Origin: an uncultured Ruminococcus sp.
Lineage (GTDB): Bacteria; Bacillota; Clostridia; Oscillospirales; Ruminococcaceae
DNA: 33,118 nt
Assembly: GCA_947177755.1 (NCBI GenBank)
Contig: CAMWVV010000007.1
Coordinates: 1 to 33,118, forward strand
Reading direction: 5' to 3'
Shown here: one piece after another, positions 12,748 through 23,952 of the stretch
Numbering within the stretch: the first letter of the stretch is position 1
Layout: each line of letters begins with the position of its first letter
Program-made: the position numbers and the translations under genes
The notes under the pieces: generated by a model
What the model saw: the letters and a program-made list of their open reading frames with translations, nothing else
Database searches by the model: none
What the model was told of the DNA's origin: nothing

Positions 12748-14301
12748 TCAGGACTGTGTTGTACTCATCATCTGTATTTGCAGTGCGTCGGACGCTGTTA
12801 TACCGTCGCCTGTATTGTATACATCTGCATTGAATTTTCCTTTTGTTGTAAGCTTGTAATTATCGGGATTTGCAATTGACTGCATAATAAGTACAGCGTC
12901 TGCAATATTGACATCATCGTCATTGTTTGCGTTTCCTGAACGTTCTATATCAAGACTTAAAAGAACCTTGATATTATCTTCATAGTTTGCAGTTGTGGAA
13001 ATGGGTTCCGGAGTTTCACAGAGACTCTGGACATACTCATAATAAGAACCGTCAACGTCATCTATTTCATCAGCGTACTTTATTACATATAACTGCACTG
13101 CCGTGAGGTCGTATATGCTGGCACTGGTTCCTTCTCCGTCCAAATCATAGTTTTCGTTGATGTTGTTCCATGTTTCTGCCGGAAGTATGCTTTTTTCAGC
13201 TTTACTGCCCTTCAATTTGTCACTCCAGTAAATGTTTATATCGAAGTAGTCCATGTAGTCAACAACTCCATCCATATTTACATCGGGAGCAGGTCGGATA
13301 CCGTTTTCAACATCGGAACAGTATGAATCAAAGAACGGAGTAAATTCATTCATATTAAGCATATAATGAAAATCATTGATGTCATATGTCGGTCCTATAT
13401 TATCACTTACTTCGATGCCCATTTTTGAAGCAGCATTTATTACCAGTGAGGGAATACTATATGAAGATACATAGCCTTCAATATTCTCTTTGTAGTATTC
13501 TATCGTGAAATATTCCTGTTTTACTTCTATGTGATTTAAAATATAAGCTGCTACCGCCACCGACATAATAGGACCATAATAATTATGCGGAACAAGATGC
13601 TCTGAATAATAGAAAGAGAAATCCCAGCATTTTTGATATTCTTCTTCAGTAAGAATCTGCTTTATTACTTCGGTTTTCTTCTCTGTAAAGAATACGTCCA
13701 TACAGTAAATATCATCAACATCAAGCTGACCGTTTCCGTTAATATCGAGGTCTGCTGTACCGCTCTGATACAGTTCATCAATCAGATAATATTGAGCTTC
13801 CAGATATTCCACATGATAGAACATACGCATAGGGAAAACGTATGCCTGAATTTCCTTGTATTTTCCGAAATCGTCCTCAGTAGTAAGCGGTTCAATATCA
13901 GGGTCATAATATGCAGGATTGAGATATTCATATTTAATGTTTCCATCGACTATAAAGTACCTCATCAGATGTAATGTATCATCAAAGTCAACTGTTCCGT
14001 TGCCGTCATAGTCGGCTATGCTTTCGATACGCTGTACTATTTCAGGGTCAATATCATTCTCATAAGAATAGTATTCTGAACGGTAAGCGTCAAGCAGATA
14101 GCAGTCCATGATGTCAAATTCACCGTTGCCGTTGATGTCAACGTCCAGTTCTCCGCTTTCCATTTTAGCGAAAATTTCTTTTTCACCCTGCCAGTATCTT
14201 GACGGATTAACCTTAAAAGGTACGCCTGAAGCATTGCTTGTTGTGGGCATAGCAGAACTCATTATTGTAAGTGCCGATATAAAAGACATAAATTTTTTCA
14301 T
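12748..14301 (-). CDS. Alternative internal-start product: secreted multi-dockerin protein (517 aa)
   Basis: In-frame ATG at 14301 preceded by GAAGGGAGTTATTAT (SD AAGGGAG, ~8-nt spacing) and followed by a typical signal peptide. Confidence 0.6.
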   Translation of the reverse strand: MKKFMSFISALTIMSSAMPTTSNASGVPFKVNPSRYWQGEKEIFAKMESGELDVDINGNGEFDIMDCYLLDAYRSEYYSYENDIDPEIVQRIESIADYDGNGTVDFDDTLHLMRYFIVDGNIKYEYLNPAYYDPDIEPLTTEDDFGKYKEIQAYVFPMRMFYHVEYLEAQYYLIDELYQSGTADLDINGNGQLDVDDIYCMDVFFTEKKTEVIKQILTEEEYQKCWDFSFYYSEHLVPHNYYGPIMSVAVAAYILNHIEVKQEYFTIEYYKENIEGYVSSYSIPSLVINAASKMGIEVSDNIGPTYDINDFHYMLNMNEFTPFFDSYCSDVENGIRPAPDVNMDGVVDYMDYFDINIYWSDKLKGSKAEKSILPAETWNNINENYDLDGEGTSASIYDLTAVQLYVIKYADEIDDVDGSYYEYVQSLCETPEPISTTANYEDNIKVLLSLDIERSGNANNDDDVNIADAVLIMQSIANPDNYKLTTKGKFNADVYNTGDGITASDALQIQMMSTTQS

Positions 14302-14862
14302 ATAATAACTCCCTTCGTCATCAATATTCTGCGGCGGACTTATAATCTCCGTCTCCGTCACAGTTAAGTCTGTTTGTGGTTCATATCTGATGGTTGTCTG
14401 GATTACTTCTTGTAAAGGTTGGGTTTGATAATCTGTTTTATTAATCGGAGAAGTCTGTGATAACGTGGTTGTAGTATAAACTGTACTGTCTGTAATTTCG
14501 GAAAATTCTGTTGTATATGAAGTTATAATGTTACTTTCGGTAATATTCGGAACTGTAGTTGTCACGGAAGTTACAGATGTATATTTTTCTGATTCTGTAA
14601 CAGAAGTCTGCAACGGCTTTTCAGTGCTTGTCTGCGTAACAGATTCGTTTTCCGTAACCATTTGAAAGTCATCTGAATAATTTTTGAATGCATTTTTTAA
14701 GTCATTATTTTTCCACACTCCGAAGCCTACAATAACAACAGCACATATTCCCGAAATCATAAGTGAGGTTCTTTTTATTATTGCTGTTCTTCTCCGTCTT
14801 TTTTCAAGAATTTCATCGCCTTTTCTGAATACTCTTTCTGTAATATCCTCATAGCTCTTCAT
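12748..14862 (-). CDS. Continuous frame: anti-sigma-like one-TM protein (N-term) fused in frame to a secreted protein with several dockerin-like motifs
   Basis: Start ATG 14862 (MKSYEDITERVFRKGDEILEKRRRRTAIIKRTSLMISGICAVVIVGFGVW...) after AGAGGGG, overlapping the sigma gene by 14 nt. Thr/Ser-rich linker, then an internal signal peptide MKKFMSFISALTIMSSAMPTTSNA at 14301. Dockerin-like motifs: DINGNGEFDIMD, DYDGNGTVDFDD, DINGNGQLDVDD, DVNMDGVVDYMD, DLDGEGTSASIYD, NANNDDDVNIAD, DVYNTGDGITASD. Confidence 0.75.
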   Translation of the reverse strand: MKSYEDITERVFRKGDEILEKRRRRTAIIKRTSLMISGICAVVIVGFGVWKNNDLKNAFKNYSDDFQMVTENESVTQTSTEKPLQTSVTESEKYTSVTSVTTTVPNITESNIITSYTTEFSEITDSTVYTTTTLSQTSPINKTDYQTQPLQEVIQTTIRYEPQTDLTVTETEIISPPQNIDDEGSYYMKKFMSFISALTIMSSAMPTTSNASGVPFKVNPSRYWQGEKEIFAKMESGELDVDINGNGEFDIMDCYLLDAYRSEYYSYENDIDPEIVQRIESIADYDGNGTVDFDDTLHLMRYFIVDGNIKYEYLNPAYYDPDIEPLTTEDDFGKYKEIQAYVFPMRMFYHVEYLEAQYYLIDELYQSGTADLDINGNGQLDVDDIYCMDVFFTEKKTEVIKQILTEEEYQKCWDFSFYYSEHLVPHNYYGPIMSVAVAAYILNHIEVKQEYFTIEYYKENIEGYVSSYSIPSLVINAASKMGIEVSDNIGPTYDINDFHYMLNMNEFTPFFDSYCSDVENGIRPAPDVNMDGVVDYMDYFDINIYWSDKLKGSKAEKSILPAETWNNINENYDLDGEGTSASIYDLTAVQLYVIKYADEIDDVDGSYYEYVQSLCETPEPISTTANYEDNIKVLLSLDIERSGNANNDDDVNIADAVLIMQSIANPDNYKLTTKGKFNADVYNTGDGITASDALQIQMMSTTQS

Positions 14863-15403
14863 AGGTAAACCCCTCTCTTTCAAGCTCTGATTTAAGAGAT
14901 TTTTTAGCCCTGTAAAGTAAATATGTAATCTGACGATTGGTTTTGTGCATGATTTTTGCGGTTTGTGAAGTGTTGAATTCTTCAAAATATGTTAAATAAA
15001 GTACCTGACGGTAGTCCTGATTCAGCTTCTGCATTACCCTGTGAATGAAAATTTTCTGTTCATCTTTTATATAGTTCTGTTCAAGTTCTGTTTTATCTTC
15101 AAGGCTGTAGAAATCATCAATCGGAACAGAAACAAATTTTGAAGTTTTCCTGATATGGTCAATCGCTGTAAATCTTCCTATGGAGTAAAGCCACGTTTTG
15201 AATGAACTTTTTCCCGAAAATCTTGGCTTTCTGACATAAAGCTTTATAAATACTTCCTCCGCAATTTCCTCCGCATTACATATATTGTCAGTATAACTAT
15301 ATACATACATCACAAGCCCGTCTCTGTATTCACGGATTATCTCAGCAAGAGCATTTTTGTCACCTTCAAGAAAACGGTGGTAGCTACTTGCACCGTTATC
15401 CAT
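14849..15403 (-). CDS. ECF-family RNA polymerase sigma factor
   Basis: Region 2: DNICNAEEIAEEVFIKLYVRKPRFSGKSSFKTWLYSIGRFTAIDHIRK; region 4: MQKLNQDYRQVLYLTYFEEFNTSQTAKIMHKTNRQITYLLYRAKKSLKSEL. Confidence 0.93.
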   Translation of the reverse strand: MDNGASSYHRFLEGDKNALAEIIREYRDGLVMYVYSYTDNICNAEEIAEEVFIKLYVRKPRFSGKSSFKTWLYSIGRFTAIDHIRKTSKFVSVPIDDFYSLEDKTELEQNYIKDEQKIFIHRVMQKLNQDYRQVLYLTYFEEFNTSQTAKIMHKTNRQITYLLYRAKKSLKSELEREGFTYEEL

Positions 15404-15614: not shown

Positions 15615-18600
15615 TCATGAAAAATACCAGTAATCAAAATCAACGTCTCCGCTGAACAAGAAACATAAATCAGTACTTCCGCTGAGCGAACTGCTGACAG
15701 GTACTTTTATTTCGGACATACCCGAAGGAATTTCCGCATATGCAACAGCCTCACCCTTTGCGTCACCTTTGCAGACCTTTATTACTGCACCATTTTTTGA
15801 TGATGCTTTTATTGTAAGAGTTTTTGCACCCTTTGAAAAGTCTGCACCGTTAACGGAAATCCAGCTTCCCTTTGTACCATGCACTGTAGTATCACCCAGA
15901 CCGTTTACAGAAATGTCTTTTGACTGATTTGACATGGTTTCAGCCTGTACTTTTGAATACGGATTGAGTTTCTTAAGCTGTGCGATTCCTGTCATAGTTC
16001 CTGTTACCTGATTCATTTTTTCACCGCTCATGGTGATTTTGTCAACCTGCGGACTTCTGTAATTGCCGTCGATTCCCATAGCCTTTTCAACGGGACGTGA
16101 GTGGTAGAACAGATAAAGCTGGTTATTGAGTTCAACAATTGAATGATGGTTATTGCCTGTCATTCCTGCAAAGAAATTTCCCTGATTCTTGAACAGTTCT
16201 CCGCCATATGTGTAAGGTCCGAGAGGATTATCCGCAACCATATATTCTATGCCTGCCGTAGAAAGTCCGTACTGATTTCCGCCTGTATTCCAGTTTGAAC
16301 AGTAAGTATAATAATATTTGTTGCCTATTTTGTTTATACCCGAATCTTCAAAGACATACGGAGCGTCAATTGTAGACGGTGTTCCGACAATACTTGTCAT
16401 ATCGTCACCGAGTTTTACAACTCTTGTTGTTGAAGGCATTGCTTGCTTACCCTCGGGAACTCCTCCGCCGAAACATAAATAACCTGTTCCGTCGTCGTCA
16501 ACAAAAACAGCAGGGTCAAAGAGCCACGGAATATTATTACAGTTCGGAACAGCTCTTGTTATAAGTTCATGACCGAGGGGGTCGCTCCACGGACCTGTAG
16601 GACTATCGGCAGTAAGCACGCAAACACCGTTTCCGCCGTTGCAGAAGTAAAGGAAGAATTTTTCCTTGCCGTTTATAGTTTTGTGTGCTGCACACGGAGC
16701 CCATGAAAGCGATGCCCATTTTGCCACGCCGTCTGAACCTGCTACATTTATAGCACCGTGGTCAGTCCAGTTAACCATATCGTCGGACGAAATACAGTTG
16801 ATTTTGTTTACTTTTCCGTAAGTGTTTTCGGTGACATTTCCGTTTGCATCATATTCAACAACATCATTTGTCATATACACATAAACCCTGCCATTGTACT
16901 CCATAACTCCAGGGTCTGCACCGAATCTCTGCGTATAAAGAGGATTGTTTTCACCTGATTTTTTGTAGCTTGCTGTCGGACTTACTAAAGAAAAGAGTTT
17001 TTCCATAGCGGCATTGTCAACAATTTTTTCAGCAACCGGAAATTCTTTTATCTGCCCGAGAATAAACTTCTGAATCAGAACAGCATCATTAACATTATAT
17101 TCACCGCTTTGGTCAACGTCTGCGGAAATCTTTTCTGACGATTCACTGAAACCGTTCACAAGTCCTTTTCTTGCCATTACCATATCAAATGAATTGATTA
17201 CGCCGTCTGAATTTATGTCACCGAGAATAATATTTTTTGATTCTCCTGCACCTAAAATTGAAGTTCTTGCAATTGCACCTATAACTTCGTCGATATAGAA
17301 ATTGCTTGTTGAATCGGCAGTTTCGATATAAATCTGCATATTTGTAGCACCATCGGGAATTTTATAGTTTTTGTTTGCAAGCTGTACCCATTCACCCTTT
17401 ATTGCTGTTGCCTCTGCAATGGTGCTGTAACGGGTATCGCCGTTTGAGTCGGTGTACTGTAGTTTGAGATAAAATTTATCTGTCGGTTCACCATCGTAGT
17501 ACATTACATTTGCACTGAAACTGTATTCACTGCCTGCCTCAAATGCTCTGCCGAGAGTTTTTGAAGCACCGTTCCATGCAGCAGTTCTGTCTTTTACGAG
17601 AAGTGATTCGTTGCCTACATATGCAGTACGTCCGCTTGTGAGAACTTCTCCCGAGCCTCTTATACCCCAGTCACAAGTACTTCCCTCAAAGCCGTCCGCA
17701 AAATACCAGCCGTAATCGTTGGGGGTTATTGGTGTTGATTCATCAGAAAGAGTAACAACAAACGTTGAAACGCTGTTTGCAGGAAGCTGAGCATAGAAAT
17801 TATCGCCGTCGAAATCCATATTAAGTGTAGGAGCAATATTTTCATTTGCGGAAGTTCTGTAACGGTCAACGTCCGAAATATTTTCATTGTCTATTCTGAA
17901 ATTCTGAGTATATTCTTTTTCACTCTTGTTTACCGCAACAATAGTGACCTGATTGTCATCGCCTTTATATGCAGAAACATAGACATCTTTTTCAGGCTGT
18001 TCTGTAGCGTCAACACGCACATCACCGGGACGTACATATTTTGAATACTGTGCCATGCAGTAGCCACGCTTGCTTATCTTGCCGTCCTCAGTCATAAGAC
18101 CATAACTTCTGCGGATATACCACCATGTATATGCACTCATATTGCCCACAACCATAGCATTGTGGATATTTTCCGCAACTTCTATAGCTTCGGGATATTT
18201 GTTAGCTGAATCGGCATCACTGTTAGGTACATAGACTTCTGTCATCCATATTTCCTTACCGCTGTTTTCGAGGTCAGGGAAGTCCATCCAATCTCTTGTA
18301 GTTCCGTACATATGAGTACCGAAAAGGTCACAGTTTGCCATAGCTTTTTCATTATTAAGTATTTTACGGTAGAATTTCTTTCCGCCGTCCTTGACCCATG
18401 AAGCATTTTCGGGAGCGTACTGGAAACTTTCAGGCGACATAAGTCTTGTGCTTGTTATCTTATCGCCATAGTTTGCGATAAAATCCGTTGTTTCGTCGGT
18501 TGACCAGTATGTCCACTCTTCAGCATAGTCAGGCTCATTCTGAACCGATATAGAGTAAAGGTCAACGCCGTTATCTTTCATATACTGTCCGAAATTGTTA

Positions 18601-19058
18601 AGATGTTCGGCATAAGCACCATAATTTGACTTTGGAATATGAAGTTTGCCATTGCTTCCGCCTGATTCTGCGAGATTTGCAGGTGGTTCCCACGGCGATG
18701 CAAAAACAGTAGCACCCATTTTTGTGGCAAACTGTGCTGTCGGGACAGCAAGTTTCCACTGCGAACTATCGGGATTTACAAACACACGGAGTATAGTAAG
18801 CCCGAGTTCATTGTCTCCGTTACCGAAAGCGGTCTGTCTTTGAGCATCAGACAAATCACCGCCCTTGTCTGCCGTCCATTCAGGGTGATTGATGCCTCCG
18901 AAACCACGTATTGTCTGATATTCCTTGTTAATGTCAACTACCACTTCACTGGCAGCTGCAACGTTTTTTTGTTCGGGCAGTGCCGATGTTAATGTAAACA
19001 TCATAGCAGACGATGTAAGCAAAGATAAAATTTTTTTTACTGATTTTTTGGTTTTCAT
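15615..19058 (-). CDS. Cellulosomal bifunctional xylan hydrolase: GH30 - CBM22 - dockerin - GH43 - CBM6-like
   Basis: Signal peptide. GH30: TIRGFGGINHPEW, FASPWEPPANLAESGG, VQNEPDY, WMTEVYV. CBM22-like: YGWYFADGFEGSTCDW...FYIDEVIGA. Dockerin: LGDINSDGVINSFDMVMARKGL...SADVDQSGEYNVNDAVLIQKFIL. GH43: ADPGVMEYNGRVYVYMTND, FDPAVFVDDDGTGYLCFGG, EDSGINKIGNKYYYTY. C-terminal CBM6-like VQAETMS...DFDYWYFS. Confidence 0.9.
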   Translation of the reverse strand: MKTKKSVKKILSLLTSSAMMFTLTSALPEQKNVAAASEVVVDINKEYQTIRGFGGINHPEWTADKGGDLSDAQRQTAFGNGDNELGLTILRVFVNPDSSQWKLAVPTAQFATKMGATVFASPWEPPANLAESGGSNGKLHIPKSNYGAYAEHLNNFGQYMKDNGVDLYSISVQNEPDYAEEWTYWSTDETTDFIANYGDKITSTRLMSPESFQYAPENASWVKDGGKKFYRKILNNEKAMANCDLFGTHMYGTTRDWMDFPDLENSGKEIWMTEVYVPNSDADSANKYPEAIEVAENIHNAMVVGNMSAYTWWYIRRSYGLMTEDGKISKRGYCMAQYSKYVRPGDVRVDATEQPEKDVYVSAYKGDDNQVTIVAVNKSEKEYTQNFRIDNENISDVDRYRTSANENIAPTLNMDFDGDNFYAQLPANSVSTFVVTLSDESTPITPNDYGWYFADGFEGSTCDWGIRGSGEVLTSGRTAYVGNESLLVKDRTAAWNGASKTLGRAFEAGSEYSFSANVMYYDGEPTDKFYLKLQYTDSNGDTRYSTIAEATAIKGEWVQLANKNYKIPDGATNMQIYIETADSTSNFYIDEVIGAIARTSILGAGESKNIILGDINSDGVINSFDMVMARKGLVNGFSESSEKISADVDQSGEYNVNDAVLIQKFILGQIKEFPVAEKIVDNAAMEKLFSLVSPTASYKKSGENNPLYTQRFGADPGVMEYNGRVYVYMTNDVVEYDANGNVTENTYGKVNKINCISSDDMVNWTDHGAINVAGSDGVAKWASLSWAPCAAHKTINGKEKFFLYFCNGGNGVCVLTADSPTGPWSDPLGHELITRAVPNCNNIPWLFDPAVFVDDDGTGYLCFGGGVPEGKQAMPSTTRVVKLGDDMTSIVGTPSTIDAPYVFEDSGINKIGNKYYYTYCSNWNTGGNQYGLSTAGIEYMVADNPLGPYTYGGELFKNQGNFFAGMTGNNHHSIVELNNQLYLFYHSRPVEKAMGIDGNYRSPQVDKITMSGEKMNQVTGTMTGIAQLKKLNPYSKVQAETMSNQSKDISVNGLGDTTVHGTKGSWISVNGADFSKGAKTLTIKASSKNGAVIKVCKGDAKGEAVAYAEIPSGMSEIKVPVSSSLSGSTDLCFLFSGDVDFDYWYFS
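17038..17714 (-). repeat. CBM22-dockerin cassette, copy 1
   Basis: Collinear with 21461-22137 at a constant 4423-bp offset with no net indel; ~39 differences in ~225 aa counted by eye. Confidence 0.85.
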
Positions 19059-19101: not shown

Positions 19102-19163
19102 ATTCTAACATATATGACAATATTTGTATTGCACATTTGTCATTTAAATGGTATTTTTGTAAT
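19102..19163 (-). promoter_or_regulatory. Predicted activator-dependent promoter of the GH30/GH43 gene
   Basis: -10 TAGAAT (19102-19107), weak -35 AATACA (19125-19130), TTTGT-elements on the plus strand at 19123, 19136 and 19156. Confidence 0.65.
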
Positions 19164-19182: not shown

Positions 19183-19211
19183 TTGAAATTTTTTCTGATG
19201 TGTAGTATAAT
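19183..19211 (+). promoter_or_regulatory. Predicted sigma-A promoter for the AraC-type regulator
   Basis: TTGAAA (19183-19188), 17-nt spacer, TATAAT (19206-19211), 31 nt before ATG 19243. Confidence 0.75.
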
Positions 19212-19242: not shown

Positions 19243-20466
19243 ATGGATTATGAAAAAATTTCTGATATAACACAGGAAGAACTTATTTACATAAGCAGAC
19301 AGTTTGCGAATATGTTCGGATTTCCCGTAAGACTTTACAACAAGAGTGAACTTATTTTCTTTCACTCTACCGCTAATCTGACAGCCGACCCCGTTTCACT
19401 TTGTCTTGACGAAATAATTCAAAAACAGGAACAAATCGACTATTATGTCTATGAAAGTACTTTTTATTATGGCATTGTCAACTGCGGACAGTATAAATTT
19501 GTAACTGGCCCTGTAAGCGAACTAAGACTATCAGACCATGAATTTAACAGGCTCGGATTTATTCTCGGAATAGAAAACAATGATATTCCGATTTTTACTG
19601 CGTCCATGAAAAGTCTTTCGGGAATACATCTTGACACGCTTATTCAGGCAATTATTCTCTATAATTTTTCCGTAAACAAAACAATGTATAACATATCGGA
19701 TATAAGAATAAAAAGTACAGAACAGAATAACATATCCACCGATATAAAGGAAAATGAGATTTCCGACATCGGCGAAAGGCTTTTTATGAATAACTCACGT
19801 TCATATGCTATTGAAAGAGATATGATTAAAAAGGTAATGAATGGTGACGTTGAAGGGCTGATTGACGGTGCAACCAAAATCCCGTCTGTAAGTTCGGGAA
19901 ATCTTGCACCGCACCTGCTCCGCCACAGCAAGAACTTTTTCATAAAACTTGAAACCATTATGGCACGTGCCGCAGTTGAAGCAGGTTTAGACGTTGATGA
20001 AATTTTTTCTATTGAAGAAATGTATATCAGGAAATGCGAGTCACTTGACAATATCGACCGCATTAAAAATCTCCAGTATCATATGATAGTTGACTATGCG
20101 GACAGAGTAAAAAAACTTAAACAATATAACGGACAAAATTCAAAAATGGTCACGGAGATTTCCGCATATATCCGCAGTCATATTTCCGAATCAATAAAAA
20201 CTTCCGATATTGCCGAACACTTCGGAAAGAGCAGGGGCGGAATAACAACGGAATTTAAAAAGCAGACTGGTATGAATCTTTCGGATTTTATCAAACTTAA
20301 AAAAATTCAGGAGGCTCAGGAACTCCTTTATGAAACAAATAAAAGTCTTGTACTGATAAGCGATTATCTCGGCTTTTCGTCGCAAAGCCATTTCACAAGG
20401 GTATTCAAGGAAATTACGGGAATTACTCCGAAAGAATACAGAGATAAAAATCATATCGGCAAATAA
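19243..20466 (+). CDS. AraC-family transcriptional regulator (likely local xylanase regulator)
   Basis: C-terminal double HTH: VTEISAYIRSHISESIKTSDIAEHFGKSRGGITTEFKKQTGMNLSDFIKLKKIQEAQELLYETNKSLVLISDYLGFSSQSHFTRVFKEITGITPKEYRDK. Start ATG 19243 after AGGAGG at 19231; the track start at 18925 overlaps the divergent GH30 gene. Confidence 0.9.
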   Translation: MDYEKISDITQEELIYISRQFANMFGFPVRLYNKSELIFFHSTANLTADPVSLCLDEIIQKQEQIDYYVYESTFYYGIVNCGQYKFVTGPVSELRLSDHEFNRLGFILGIENNDIPIFTASMKSLSGIHLDTLIQAIILYNFSVNKTMYNISDIRIKSTEQNNISTDIKENEISDIGERLFMNNSRSYAIERDMIKKVMNGDVEGLIDGATKIPSVSSGNLAPHLLRHSKNFFIKLETIMARAAVEAGLDVDEIFSIEEMYIRKCESLDNIDRIKNLQYHMIVDYADRVKKLKQYNGQNSKMVTEISAYIRSHISESIKTSDIAEHFGKSRGGITTEFKKQTGMNLSDFIKLKKIQEAQELLYETNKSLVLISDYLGFSSQSHFTRVFKEITGITPKEYRDKNHIGK

Positions 20467-20601: not shown

Positions 20602-23600
20602 TTATGCTTTGAAAACGGCTCTTACAAAGTTGTAAATGTGAGCGTGAATGCTGTTATCGCCATGATAACCGCCGTTTACATAATGCCATATATGCGGAAC
20701 GTTGTTTTTAGCAAAATTATTATGATAATTTTCAGGATTTGAATAAACGATAGTGTCATTGCTTCCTGCTGTAATAAAGAGGAGAGAGGGAGCTTCCTTT
20801 TCAGAATCCCACTTGAAACTTCCCGTCACACCAGGAGCAGGGCATATTGCACCCACATAGCCGAAAAGGTCAGCACGCTGCATACCTATGAGGAGAGATT
20901 CTCTGCCACCCATTGAAAAACCCGTTATTGCGGTGTTTTCTCTTCCTGTTTTCACACTGTATGTGCTTTCAATATGAGGCATAAGGTCTTTTGTAAGGTC
21001 ATTTATAAAATTATCATATGCGGCATTGTTTTCGTCGTCCATAGCCGAACAGTTTTCCTGTGTTGCACTTGAATAAACATAAGGGAATACAACTATCATA
21101 TCTTCCGCTTCACCCTCGGCGATAGCGTTTCCGATAATCTGACGTGTATACATAGTATCGTTGCCTTTTATAATCATTCTGTCCTGATTTTCCCAGTAAC
21201 CGTGAAGAACGTAAAGAACAGGATATTTTTTGTTTTCGTTATAGTTGGCAGGCAGAAGAATATTATAAGGTTTATTGCGGTTGCAGGTTGTTGAATAGTA
21301 TGTGCCTGATTTTACCGTACCATACTGAACACCTGCTTTTTCCTGTTTTGAATCTGCTGTTTCAAATTCGGAAACTTTTGCCTGTACTGTCGGTGTATAT
21401 TCGGACATTGTAATCATATCTTTAGAAGAAGATGACGGAGGAGTTACAGACTGAGATACGGGAAATTCTTTTATCTGTCCGAGAATGAATTTCTGAATCA
21501 GAACAGCGTCATTTATATTATATTCACCGTTCTGGTCAACGTCTGCGGAAAGTTTTTCTGCCGAATCGCTGAAACCGTTTATAAGACCGTTTCTTGCAAG
21601 AACCATGTCAAAAGAATTGATTGCACCGTCCGAGTTTATGTCGCCGAGAGTAACATTTTTGGATTCACCAGCACCGAGAATTGTAGTTCCTGCAACTGCA
21701 CCTATAACTTCGTCGATATAGAAATTGTTTGTTGTTTCTGCTGTTTCAACGTATATCTGCATATTTGAAGCATCAGACGGAATTTTGTAATTCTTGTTTG
21801 CAAGCTGTACCCATTCGCCTTTTATTGCTGTGGCTTCTGCGATAGTGTCATACTGTGTTTCACCGCTTGCATCAGTATACTGAAGTTTGAGATAGAATTT
21901 ATCCGTTGCATCGCCGTCAAAGTACATTACATTTGCACTGAAACTATATTCATTTCCTGCAACAAACGCTCTGTTAAGAGCCTTTGAAGCACCGTTCCAT
22001 GCGTTTGTCCTGTCCTTGACAAGAAGTGATTCGTCACCTACGTATGCAGTTCTTCCACTTGTGAGAATTTCTCCTGCACCTCTTGAAGTCCAGTCACAAG
22101 TACTGCCCTCAAAGCCGTCCGCAAAGTACCAGCCGTATGCATTCGGTTCAATGGGCTTGACTTCTCCGCCGCCCTGATAATTACTTCCGTCGCCCCACTC
22201 GGACTGCGGAATCATTGAAGTAAGCGTTGTATATGCAGGCTTAGGCTGATTATTTTTATCGTAAAGAAGTGCATCACTGCCCGCTTTCAGCCATGAATTA
22301 GCGTCGTTAGGTCCCCATATTGCAACAAGCGTTACCTTGCCGTTGTATTTTCCGCTTGTGTTCACGTCCATAGCGTGCTTGAAAATTGCCTTGTACTTGT
22401 CTGCCTGGTCCTGAAGTGAATAGATAACATTACCATTACTGTCTGTAAGAGCTATATCAAGTTCTGTAACCTGAACGTCACAGCCGATTGAAAGATATTT
22501 GTCCATAGCCTCTAAATAAGAGTCAGTGCCTGCAAATCCAGTGGCATTTGCAGGAACGTGCGACTGCATTCCAACGCCGTCGAGCAATCCCTTTTCGTAA
22601 AGAGATTTACACATATTGTATATGGTATCTCTCTTATGGTCCCAGTATTCGTTGTAGTCGTTGTAATAGAGGTCACAGCCTTCGGGAGCGTACCTTCTTG
22701 CATAAGTGAAAGCCTTTTCAACAAAGCTGTTGTCTCCGTAAACCTGTACCCAGCCAGATTTACCACCCTGTCCCTGTACATTATTGTCACCGGGTTCTCT
22801 TGCTCCTCCAAAATTAGCTGTTCTGTTTGAGTCGTCACTTATACATTCGTTGGCAACGTCATAGGCATATAAATTAAGTTCAGGGTACTGAGTTTCAATC
22901 GCATTGAACATATTTTTAATATAGCTTTCCATACGCTTATCCATAGTAGCAGAATCAACCCAGTTGCCGTTAGCATCAAAATTTTCTTTGAAAAACCATA
23001 CAGGTGTCTGACTGTGCCACACAAAAGTATGACCTCTAATAGCTATATTGTTCTGCACACAGAAATCCATTATTGCTGCTGCACTATTGAGTGAAACACC
23101 AATATTTGTACCGCTGCACTGTGACTGTACAAGAGTAGCATCGGGCTTCATTTCGTTCTCGCACTCAATGCTGTTGAAATCCTTAATCACGTTTGCGGTA
23201 ATGGCAGAATTTTTTACAGTTCCGCCATTAAGGATATTACCTACTCTGAAATAGTCTGCAAATTCGTCCTTAAGACCCTTTTCTCCTGCCGCATATGCTG
23301 AAAGACCTTTTTTTGAAGTGATTTTAACGTTGTCAAAGCTGAAATCATTTGTACTTTCTGTTGTGAGAGTAAGCCGAAACTCATAGCTGTTTGCAGGTGC
23401 TTTATAATCTGCGGAAAGTTCAGTCCACTGTCCTGCTTTTACCTTTTTTTCGGCAAGTTCAACAACCGTTTCAACACCTGTTTCCTCATCTATACACAAT
23501 AAATTCAGACGGAATTTTTCATCTGATTCGCTGTAAACCTGAACACTGTAATTATATTCAACCGCACCCGAAAGATAAAATCCCTTTGAAGAACTTGCAC

Positions 23601-23841
23601 CGTCATTTACAGAAGTACGTCCTGAAACGTTCATACCTCTCGAACCGTTGTAACCTTTACCATTTTCGGCTGTAAGCCTGACTGTATCGCTGTTGCCGTA
23701 CCAGCCGTCATAATTCACTTCAAAATCATTGCTGACCTGTTCGCTTGCAAATGCTCTTTCTGCAACCGTCGGCATATATGAAGCTATTCCTGCACTGCAT
23801 ATCAATGCTGTAATACCAGACGTAATTTTTTTTAAACGCAT
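20602..23841 (-). CDS. Cellulosomal bifunctional xylanase/esterase: CBM22 - GH10 - CBM22 - dockerin - CE1
   Basis: Signal peptide. N-terminal CBM22-like SNDFEVNYDGWYG...FSFDNVKITSK. GH10: FVWHSQTPVWFF, DVANECISDD (acid/base), VQVTELDIAL (nucleophile). CBM22-like plus dockerin LGDINSDGAINSFDMVLARNGL...SADVDQNGEYNINDAVLIQKFIL. CE1: YPVLYVLHGYWENQD, ITGFSMGGRESLL. Confidence 0.93.
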   Translation of the reverse strand: MRLKKITSGITALICSAGIASYMPTVAERAFASEQVSNDFEVNYDGWYGNSDTVRLTAENGKGYNGSRGMNVSGRTSVNDGASSSKGFYLSGAVEYNYSVQVYSESDEKFRLNLLCIDEETGVETVVELAEKKVKAGQWTELSADYKAPANSYEFRLTLTTESTNDFSFDNVKITSKKGLSAYAAGEKGLKDEFADYFRVGNILNGGTVKNSAITANVIKDFNSIECENEMKPDATLVQSQCSGTNIGVSLNSAAAIMDFCVQNNIAIRGHTFVWHSQTPVWFFKENFDANGNWVDSATMDKRMESYIKNMFNAIETQYPELNLYAYDVANECISDDSNRTANFGGAREPGDNNVQGQGGKSGWVQVYGDNSFVEKAFTYARRYAPEGCDLYYNDYNEYWDHKRDTIYNMCKSLYEKGLLDGVGMQSHVPANATGFAGTDSYLEAMDKYLSIGCDVQVTELDIALTDSNGNVIYSLQDQADKYKAIFKHAMDVNTSGKYNGKVTLVAIWGPNDANSWLKAGSDALLYDKNNQPKPAYTTLTSMIPQSEWGDGSNYQGGGEVKPIEPNAYGWYFADGFEGSTCDWTSRGAGEILTSGRTAYVGDESLLVKDRTNAWNGASKALNRAFVAGNEYSFSANVMYFDGDATDKFYLKLQYTDASGETQYDTIAEATAIKGEWVQLANKNYKIPSDASNMQIYVETAETTNNFYIDEVIGAVAGTTILGAGESKNVTLGDINSDGAINSFDMVLARNGLINGFSDSAEKLSADVDQNGEYNINDAVLIQKFILGQIKEFPVSQSVTPPSSSSKDMITMSEYTPTVQAKVSEFETADSKQEKAGVQYGTVKSGTYYSTTCNRNKPYNILLPANYNENKKYPVLYVLHGYWENQDRMIIKGNDTMYTRQIIGNAIAEGEAEDMIVVFPYVYSSATQENCSAMDDENNAAYDNFINDLTKDLMPHIESTYSVKTGRENTAITGFSMGGRESLLIGMQRADLFGYVGAICPAPGVTGSFKWDSEKEAPSLLFITAGSNDTIVYSNPENYHNNFAKNNVPHIWHYVNGGYHGDNSIHAHIYNFVRAVFKA
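21461..22137 (-). repeat. CBM22-dockerin cassette, copy 2
   Basis: See copy 1 at 17038-17714. Confidence 0.85.
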
Positions 23842-23890: not shown

Positions 23891-23952
23891 ATTCTATCAT
23901 ATTCTTATAATTTTGTATTGCACTTTTGTCATGTAATTTACATATTTGTCAT
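23891..23952 (-). promoter_or_regulatory. Predicted activator-dependent promoter of the GH10/CE1 gene
   Basis: -10 TAGAAT (23891-23896), weak -35 AATACA (23914-23919), TTTGT-elements on the plus strand at 23912, 23925 and 23945. Confidence 0.65.

Follow-up and report, generated by a model that had tools for sequence, protein, structure and literature searches.

The window analysed here is the whole 33,118-nucleotide stretch of contig CAMWVV010000007.1 from an uncultured Ruminococcus sp., and the part that concerns us contains two cellulosome xylanase genes on the minus strand and, between them, a regulator gene on the plus strand:

15615 to 19058, minus strand: GH30 (XynC-like)-CBM-dockerin-GH43-CBM6 xylanase, predicted target 1 (domain searches)
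19243 to 20466, plus strand: AraC-type regulator of 407 amino acids with HTH_18 at residues 323-401, predicted binder and activator (Pfam; co-occurrence of orthologs and sites)
20602 to 23841, minus strand: GH10-CBM-dockerin-esterase (CE1-type) xylanase, predicted target 2 (domain searches)

The GH30/GH43 (15615-19058) and GH10/CE1 (20602-23841) proteins share a very similar CBM-dockerin segment and differ in their catalytic domains. Elsewhere, a CE1 end was found on the GH30 gene in locus L008, and GH10-GH43 paralogs also occur, and these arrangements, together with the shared segment, point to module shuffling. At positions 12748-15403 of the window, an ECF-type sigma factor gene and a dockerin protein gene overlap; a membrane segment is predicted in the dockerin protein, and the two proteins are possibly a sigma/anti-sigma pair.

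Domain analysis of the 407-residue protein revealed a C-terminal two helix-turn-helix domain of the AraC/XylS family (HTH_18 67.6 bits, HTH_AraC 57.2 bits), for which PDB sequence matches and fold matches to AraC-type domains were also obtained. For the first ~300 residues, neither a Pfam match nor a convincing fold match was found in a structure search with the AlphaFold2 model, which is of moderate quality (pLDDT 70). The best full-length match was TIGR04094 (YSIRK-targeted surface antigen transcriptional regulator; residues 23-400, E-value = 4.8e-40), with a score of 137.7 bits that is below the family cut-off of 200; judging by its name, that family controls unrelated surface antigens.

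Upstream of both xylanase genes lie the same three plus-strand elements, TTTGTATT, TTTGTCAT and TTTGTAAT, at 19123, 19136 and 19156 in the GH30/GH43 copy and at 23912, 23925 and 23945 in the GH10/CE1 copy. The original prediction had described them as three elements with 13- and 20-bp spacing, and a re-check of the sequence found all coordinates and offsets to be exact at both promoters. TAGAAT lies on the minus strand at 19107-19102 and 23896-23891, in both copies 21 bp from the first element, and 20 of 21 bases are identical between the copies (TTTGTATTGCAC[A/T]TTTGTCAT). The promoter features are as follows:

19144 to 19163, minus strand: distal 20-bp repeat of the GH30/GH43 operator, ATTACAAAAATACCATTTAA on the promoter strand (kept in orthologous promoters; period-20 test)
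19123 to 19143, minus strand: proximal repeat of the GH30/GH43 operator, ATGACAAATGTGCAATACAAA, which overlaps the weak -35 (ACAAANNTGCAATACAAA hardly varies across 23 sites)
19125 to 19130, minus strand: poor -35 position AATACA of the GH30/GH43 gene, with a 17-bp spacer to the -10 (sequence; position relative to TAGAAT)
19102 to 19112, minus strand: extended -10 of the GH30/GH43 gene, TATGTTAGAAT (TATGNTANAAT conserved in 23 sites)
23933 to 23952, minus strand: distal 20-bp repeat of the GH10/CE1 operator, ATGACAAATATGTAAATTAC (23-site alignment; period-20 test)
23912 to 23932, minus strand: proximal repeat of the GH10/CE1 operator, ATGACAAAAGTGCAATACAAA (pattern searches; 23-site alignment)
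23891 to 23901, minus strand: extended -10 of the GH10/CE1 gene, TATGATAGAAT (23-site alignment)
19183 to 19211, plus strand: sigma-A promoter of the araC-type gene, TTGAAA-17-TATAAT, not overlapped by the operator (conserved in 9 loci)

Comparison of the two window promoters revealed 80% identity in the 41-bp operator and 91% in the -10 block, and 35% upstream, 20% in the spacer and 21% downstream. Because identity is confined to operator and -10, the two promoters are not a duplicated intergenic region.

The genome-wide search proposed with the original prediction was performed on the 2.6-Mb genome, in which the 41-bp pattern occurs exactly twice (reversed control: 0). With up to three mismatches, the 21-mer matched the two window sites alone (control: 1 match), and the pattern with the -10 offset again retrieved just these two. 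Within the window, three matches with up to three mismatches were found where 0.21 were expected, and none of 100 shuffles reached three. With a 62-bp sequence profile trained on 15 sites, all outside the window, both window sites scored 51.8 bits each (E-value = 2e-13), and the next best position in the genome reached 15.8 bits. A wider regulon in this genome was thus rejected, as nothing above 15.8 bits exists beyond the two window sites, and the M6 peptidase and kinase genes, judged by eye to lack the element, indeed have no strong site. Random recurrence of the motif through the genome, named in advance as counting against the prediction, was not found: the whole 2.6 Mb holds two strong sites.

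Alignment of 23 sites gave the promoter-strand consensus ATKACAAAWATRYNAWTTNN-NTKACAAANRTGCAATACAAA-N10-TATGNTANAAT, with the G of the TG of the extended -10 TATGNTANAAT present in 22 of the 23 sites and little conservation of spacer and flanks between the GH30 and GH10 site groups. When alignment columns were compared at shifts of 5 to 29 bp, a positive score was obtained at 20 bp only (sum 12.0; null mean -9.5, sd 5.3; 0/2000 permutations reached the observed value), and 20 bp is therefore read as the repeat unit. The 13-bp shift was below significance (P-value about 0.11), and the 33-bp shift (20+13) reached a P-value of 0.0015 because the first and last ACAAA align. The operator thus appears to be better read as two 20-bp head-to-tail repeats, each consisting of a box A, TKACAAA, and a box B, ATRYNAW, the B box of the distal repeat being weaker than that of the proximal one. 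Three equal elements at 13 and 20 bp were rejected, since the 13-bp offset matches the ACAAA core alone; of the original three-element anatomy, the positions and spacings hold and the equality of the elements gives way to two direct repeats. No conserved B box accompanies the third TTTGT, and we infer that this element forms the end of the proximal repeat that faces the promoter, at the -35 position, where the adjoining ACAAA could be partly retained for RNA polymerase. The distance from the operator to the xylanase -10 is constant at 15 bp, with a single 16-bp case (the GH30 site of L012). Features of a class II arrangement are present, namely tandem repeats about two helical turns apart (period 20) and an operator overlapping or abutting the -35. 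The proposed activator-type arrangement is strongly supported by this rigid operator/-10 geometry, the poor -35, the extended -10 and the comparative evidence.

Eleven orthologs of the AraC-type protein (57-94% identity; ten aligned) were collected, their records mostly labelled Ruminococcus, with one labelled Alistipes and one merely Clostridia. The contig labelled Alistipes senegalensis (L006, JAMPEF010000003.1) bears this Ruminococcus locus, and its assembly is probably mislabelled or mixed. In the orthologous loci, the element was found upstream of GH30 and of GH10 wherever upstream DNA is present. In distant orthologs, the DNA-binding domain is better conserved than the N-terminus (73-76% vs 42-61%), and the operator is likewise conserved in their loci.

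A profile scan of 125 genomes of the genus identified sites with E-value < 1e-6 in 11 genomes, 10 of which have an AraC ortholog. In the eleventh, G358, the C-terminal part of the ortholog (78% identity) lies directly beside the site near a contig end; this open frame of 96 residues (G358:C149:3880-4158, in L068) adjoins an intact operator, and the fragment reflects either a contig-end effect or a decaying gene. Only G362 has an ortholog and no site, and its contig ends 31 bp before the aligned gene start. In G339, the site is truncated by a contig end and no ortholog was detected. Some of the site-bearing genomes supplied training sites for the profile; none of these came from the window, G280, the second contig of G342, the GH98 site of G284, G379 or G210. 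In a blind scan of the family (299 genomes, 126 genera), the site was found in four genomes, all four of which have the ortholog, and in two other genera the ortholog (58-66% identity) adjoins the site. Fisher's test of the association between site and ortholog gave 6e-15, a number that is descriptive only, since the genomes are related and the co-occurrences are not independent events. No match to the site was found among viral contigs.

GH10 homologs are present in 108 of the 125 genus genomes, so that loci with and without the regulator could be compared. Among 30 GH10 loci, the site is present in every one that has an ortholog and sufficient upstream DNA (47-70 bits, the lowest-scoring one, at 47 bits, being partly masked by N), while it is absent from all 18 loci without an ortholog (best -5.8 bits), though their GH10 is about 63-80% identical. 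Since the positive sites went into the scoring matrix, it is the 18 negative loci that are informative, and they indicate that the site is not simply part of GH10 gene history. Inheritance of the site together with the regulator strongly supports the earlier suggestion that the neighbouring AraC-type protein is the candidate binder.

In three of six control species without an AraC ortholog, the GH10 homolog is divergent from a gene for a protein of ~735-743 residues. Two of the three were scanned and have LacI-like sugar-binding (Peripla_BP), weak GGDEF-like and AraC-type domains, and the third, upstream of GH10 in L169, is alike by its start:

L168, 4349 to 6553: Peripla_BP-(GGDEF-like)-AraC protein beside GH10 (domain-scanned)
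L173, 3923 to 6148: Peripla_BP-(GGDEF-like)-AraC protein beside GH10 (domain-scanned)

These proteins resemble the regulator described here in their AraC-type DNA-binding end and their divergent position from the GH10 homolog. They differ in being much larger, in having a LacI-like sugar-binding part and in the absence of the operator described here. Different regulators at a conserved GH10 gene would mean that the same gene was rewired by regulator replacement, and we tentatively suggest that GH10 xylanase control may have been exchanged within the genus between the small AraC-type protein, with its presumed N-terminal sensor and this operator, and the Peripla_BP-GGDEF-like-AraC type with a different operator, a possibility with slightly less than even prospects.

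The distance from the operator to the araC promoter varies (50-68 bp in the window group). Regulator and site are arranged in tandem in L014, L015, G350, G358 and G210, which places the site downstream of the regulator gene there; G379 has the regulator gene in divergent orientation to a GH10 gene. As the site is not always upstream of araC and its distance to the araC promoter is variable, the operator serves the xylanase promoter, and autoregulation of araC through it was rejected on the same grounds. The location of the GH30 site in the intergenic region shared with the araC-type gene, to which the original prediction had given weight, is real in the window and appears incidental, since the sites of several relatives are not upstream of araC.

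Other strong sites precede a GH10-GH43 paralog in G331 and the gene of a secreted GH98-CBM6-dockerin protein in G284. GH98 includes xylan-active enzymes, and all strong sites with a readable downstream gene drive xylan-type hydrolases (GH30, GH10, the GH10-GH43 paralog and GH98), so the regulon comprises two to a few secreted xylan-degrading enzymes. The weak matches of the genus scan (E-value 1e-4 to 0.1) that were examined have unrelated downstream genes and look like chance. A different promoter-like block, TTTGTAAAGCA with a ATTATACTACA-like sequence, recurs in several Ruminococcus genomes (G253:C68, G331:C36, G348:C154, G359:C128 and G362:C56; L082-L086).

The sites, their repeat register and rigid spacing, their gene targets and their co-inheritance with the regulator were obtained directly by computation. 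On this basis, the element is very probably the operator-promoter of a local, pathway-specific class II activator of the AraC/XylS type, the protein encoded at 19243, which would control secreted xylanases. Two subunits of this protein would bind the two 20-bp repeats head to tail on one DNA face, and, with the proximal repeat overlapping the degenerate -35, the bound activator would contact and recruit sigma-A RNA polymerase. The polymerase would recognise the extended -10 TATGNTANAAT with no good -35. The araC-type gene would be expressed at a basal level from its own near-consensus promoter. A xylan breakdown product would probably act through the N-terminal region to switch the regulator on, the inducer being a guess because the structural model is moderate and this region has no Pfam or convincing fold match. 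The GH30/GH43 and GH10/CE1 dockerin-bearing secreted xylanases would then be induced together.

Binding, activation rather than repression, and the inducer are points that we infer from sequence, and other readings were weighed. AraC-family proteins can repress, and as the proximal repeat overlaps the -35 position, the protein might mainly cover the -35 until an inducer releases it. This is unlikely, because there is no usable -35 to occlude, and the rigid -10 spacing and the retained extended -10 are expected of a protein that recruits polymerase. It is more improbable still that another cellular regulator binds the sites. The evidence naming the binder is all sequence-based, and a first look at the own genome gave 11 candidates for the 19243 protein, so other AraC-type proteins are likely present; yet the site accompanies the ortholog both within the genus and in other genera, it is absent from GH10 homologs in genomes without the ortholog, and a head-to-tail 20-bp repeat fits an AraC-type protein.

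Two further explanations are very improbable. The ECF-type sigma factor (14849-15403, next to the dockerin protein) is encoded directly downstream of the GH30/GH43 gene, and the conserved block might have been its promoter; but the -10 is a sigma-A extended -10, and this candidate was rejected because no counterpart of the sigma factor gene was found at orthologous loci that have kept the site. The likeness of the two promoters might also be due to chance or be the leftover of a duplicated upstream region, in keeping with the very similar CBM-dockerin segment of both genes. This reading is already refuted, as the similarity is confined to operator and -10 and the element is conserved across species and genera and unique in the genome. 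We therefore retain the class II activator of secreted xylanases as the preferred reading.

Ruminococcus species are leading gut fibre degraders. The outcome for this genome is a named protein, a base-resolved predicted operator and a two-promoter regulon, which make xylanase control directly testable, and the system could become a xylan-responsive sensor or promoter.

In the open-licence literature searched, no Ruminococcus xylanase regulator or operator, and no description of the present ones, was found. Ruminococcus goes unmentioned in a 2024 review on how hemicellulase genes are regulated (PMC10766802), and the available text of the R. flavefaciens FD-1 genome paper mentions shared regulators in general terms only. 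In Clostridium (Ruminiclostridium) cellulolyticum, the AraC-type XydR of the XydS/XydR system controls secreted cellulosomal hemicellulases in response to plant material. XydR belongs to the two-component response regulators, with a receiver domain and a kinase as its presumed partner, and no base-resolved operator is given in the available part of that report (PMC3572039). Unlike XydR, the 407-residue protein has no Response_reg match in Pfam. The closer comparison is XylS at the Pm promoter of Pseudomonas putida, where two direct repeats, each with a box A and a box B, overlap the site of the polymerase (PMC5481539). Two-subunit binding and polymerase recruitment are proposed here by analogy with XylS at Pm. 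The head-to-tail A/B-box repeats and the overlap of activator and polymerase sites are common to both systems, whereas the boxes are TGCA and GGTA at Pm and TKACAAA and ATRYNAW here, and the 20-bp repeat pitch, the extended -10 promoter and the xylanase targets set the Ruminococcus system apart.
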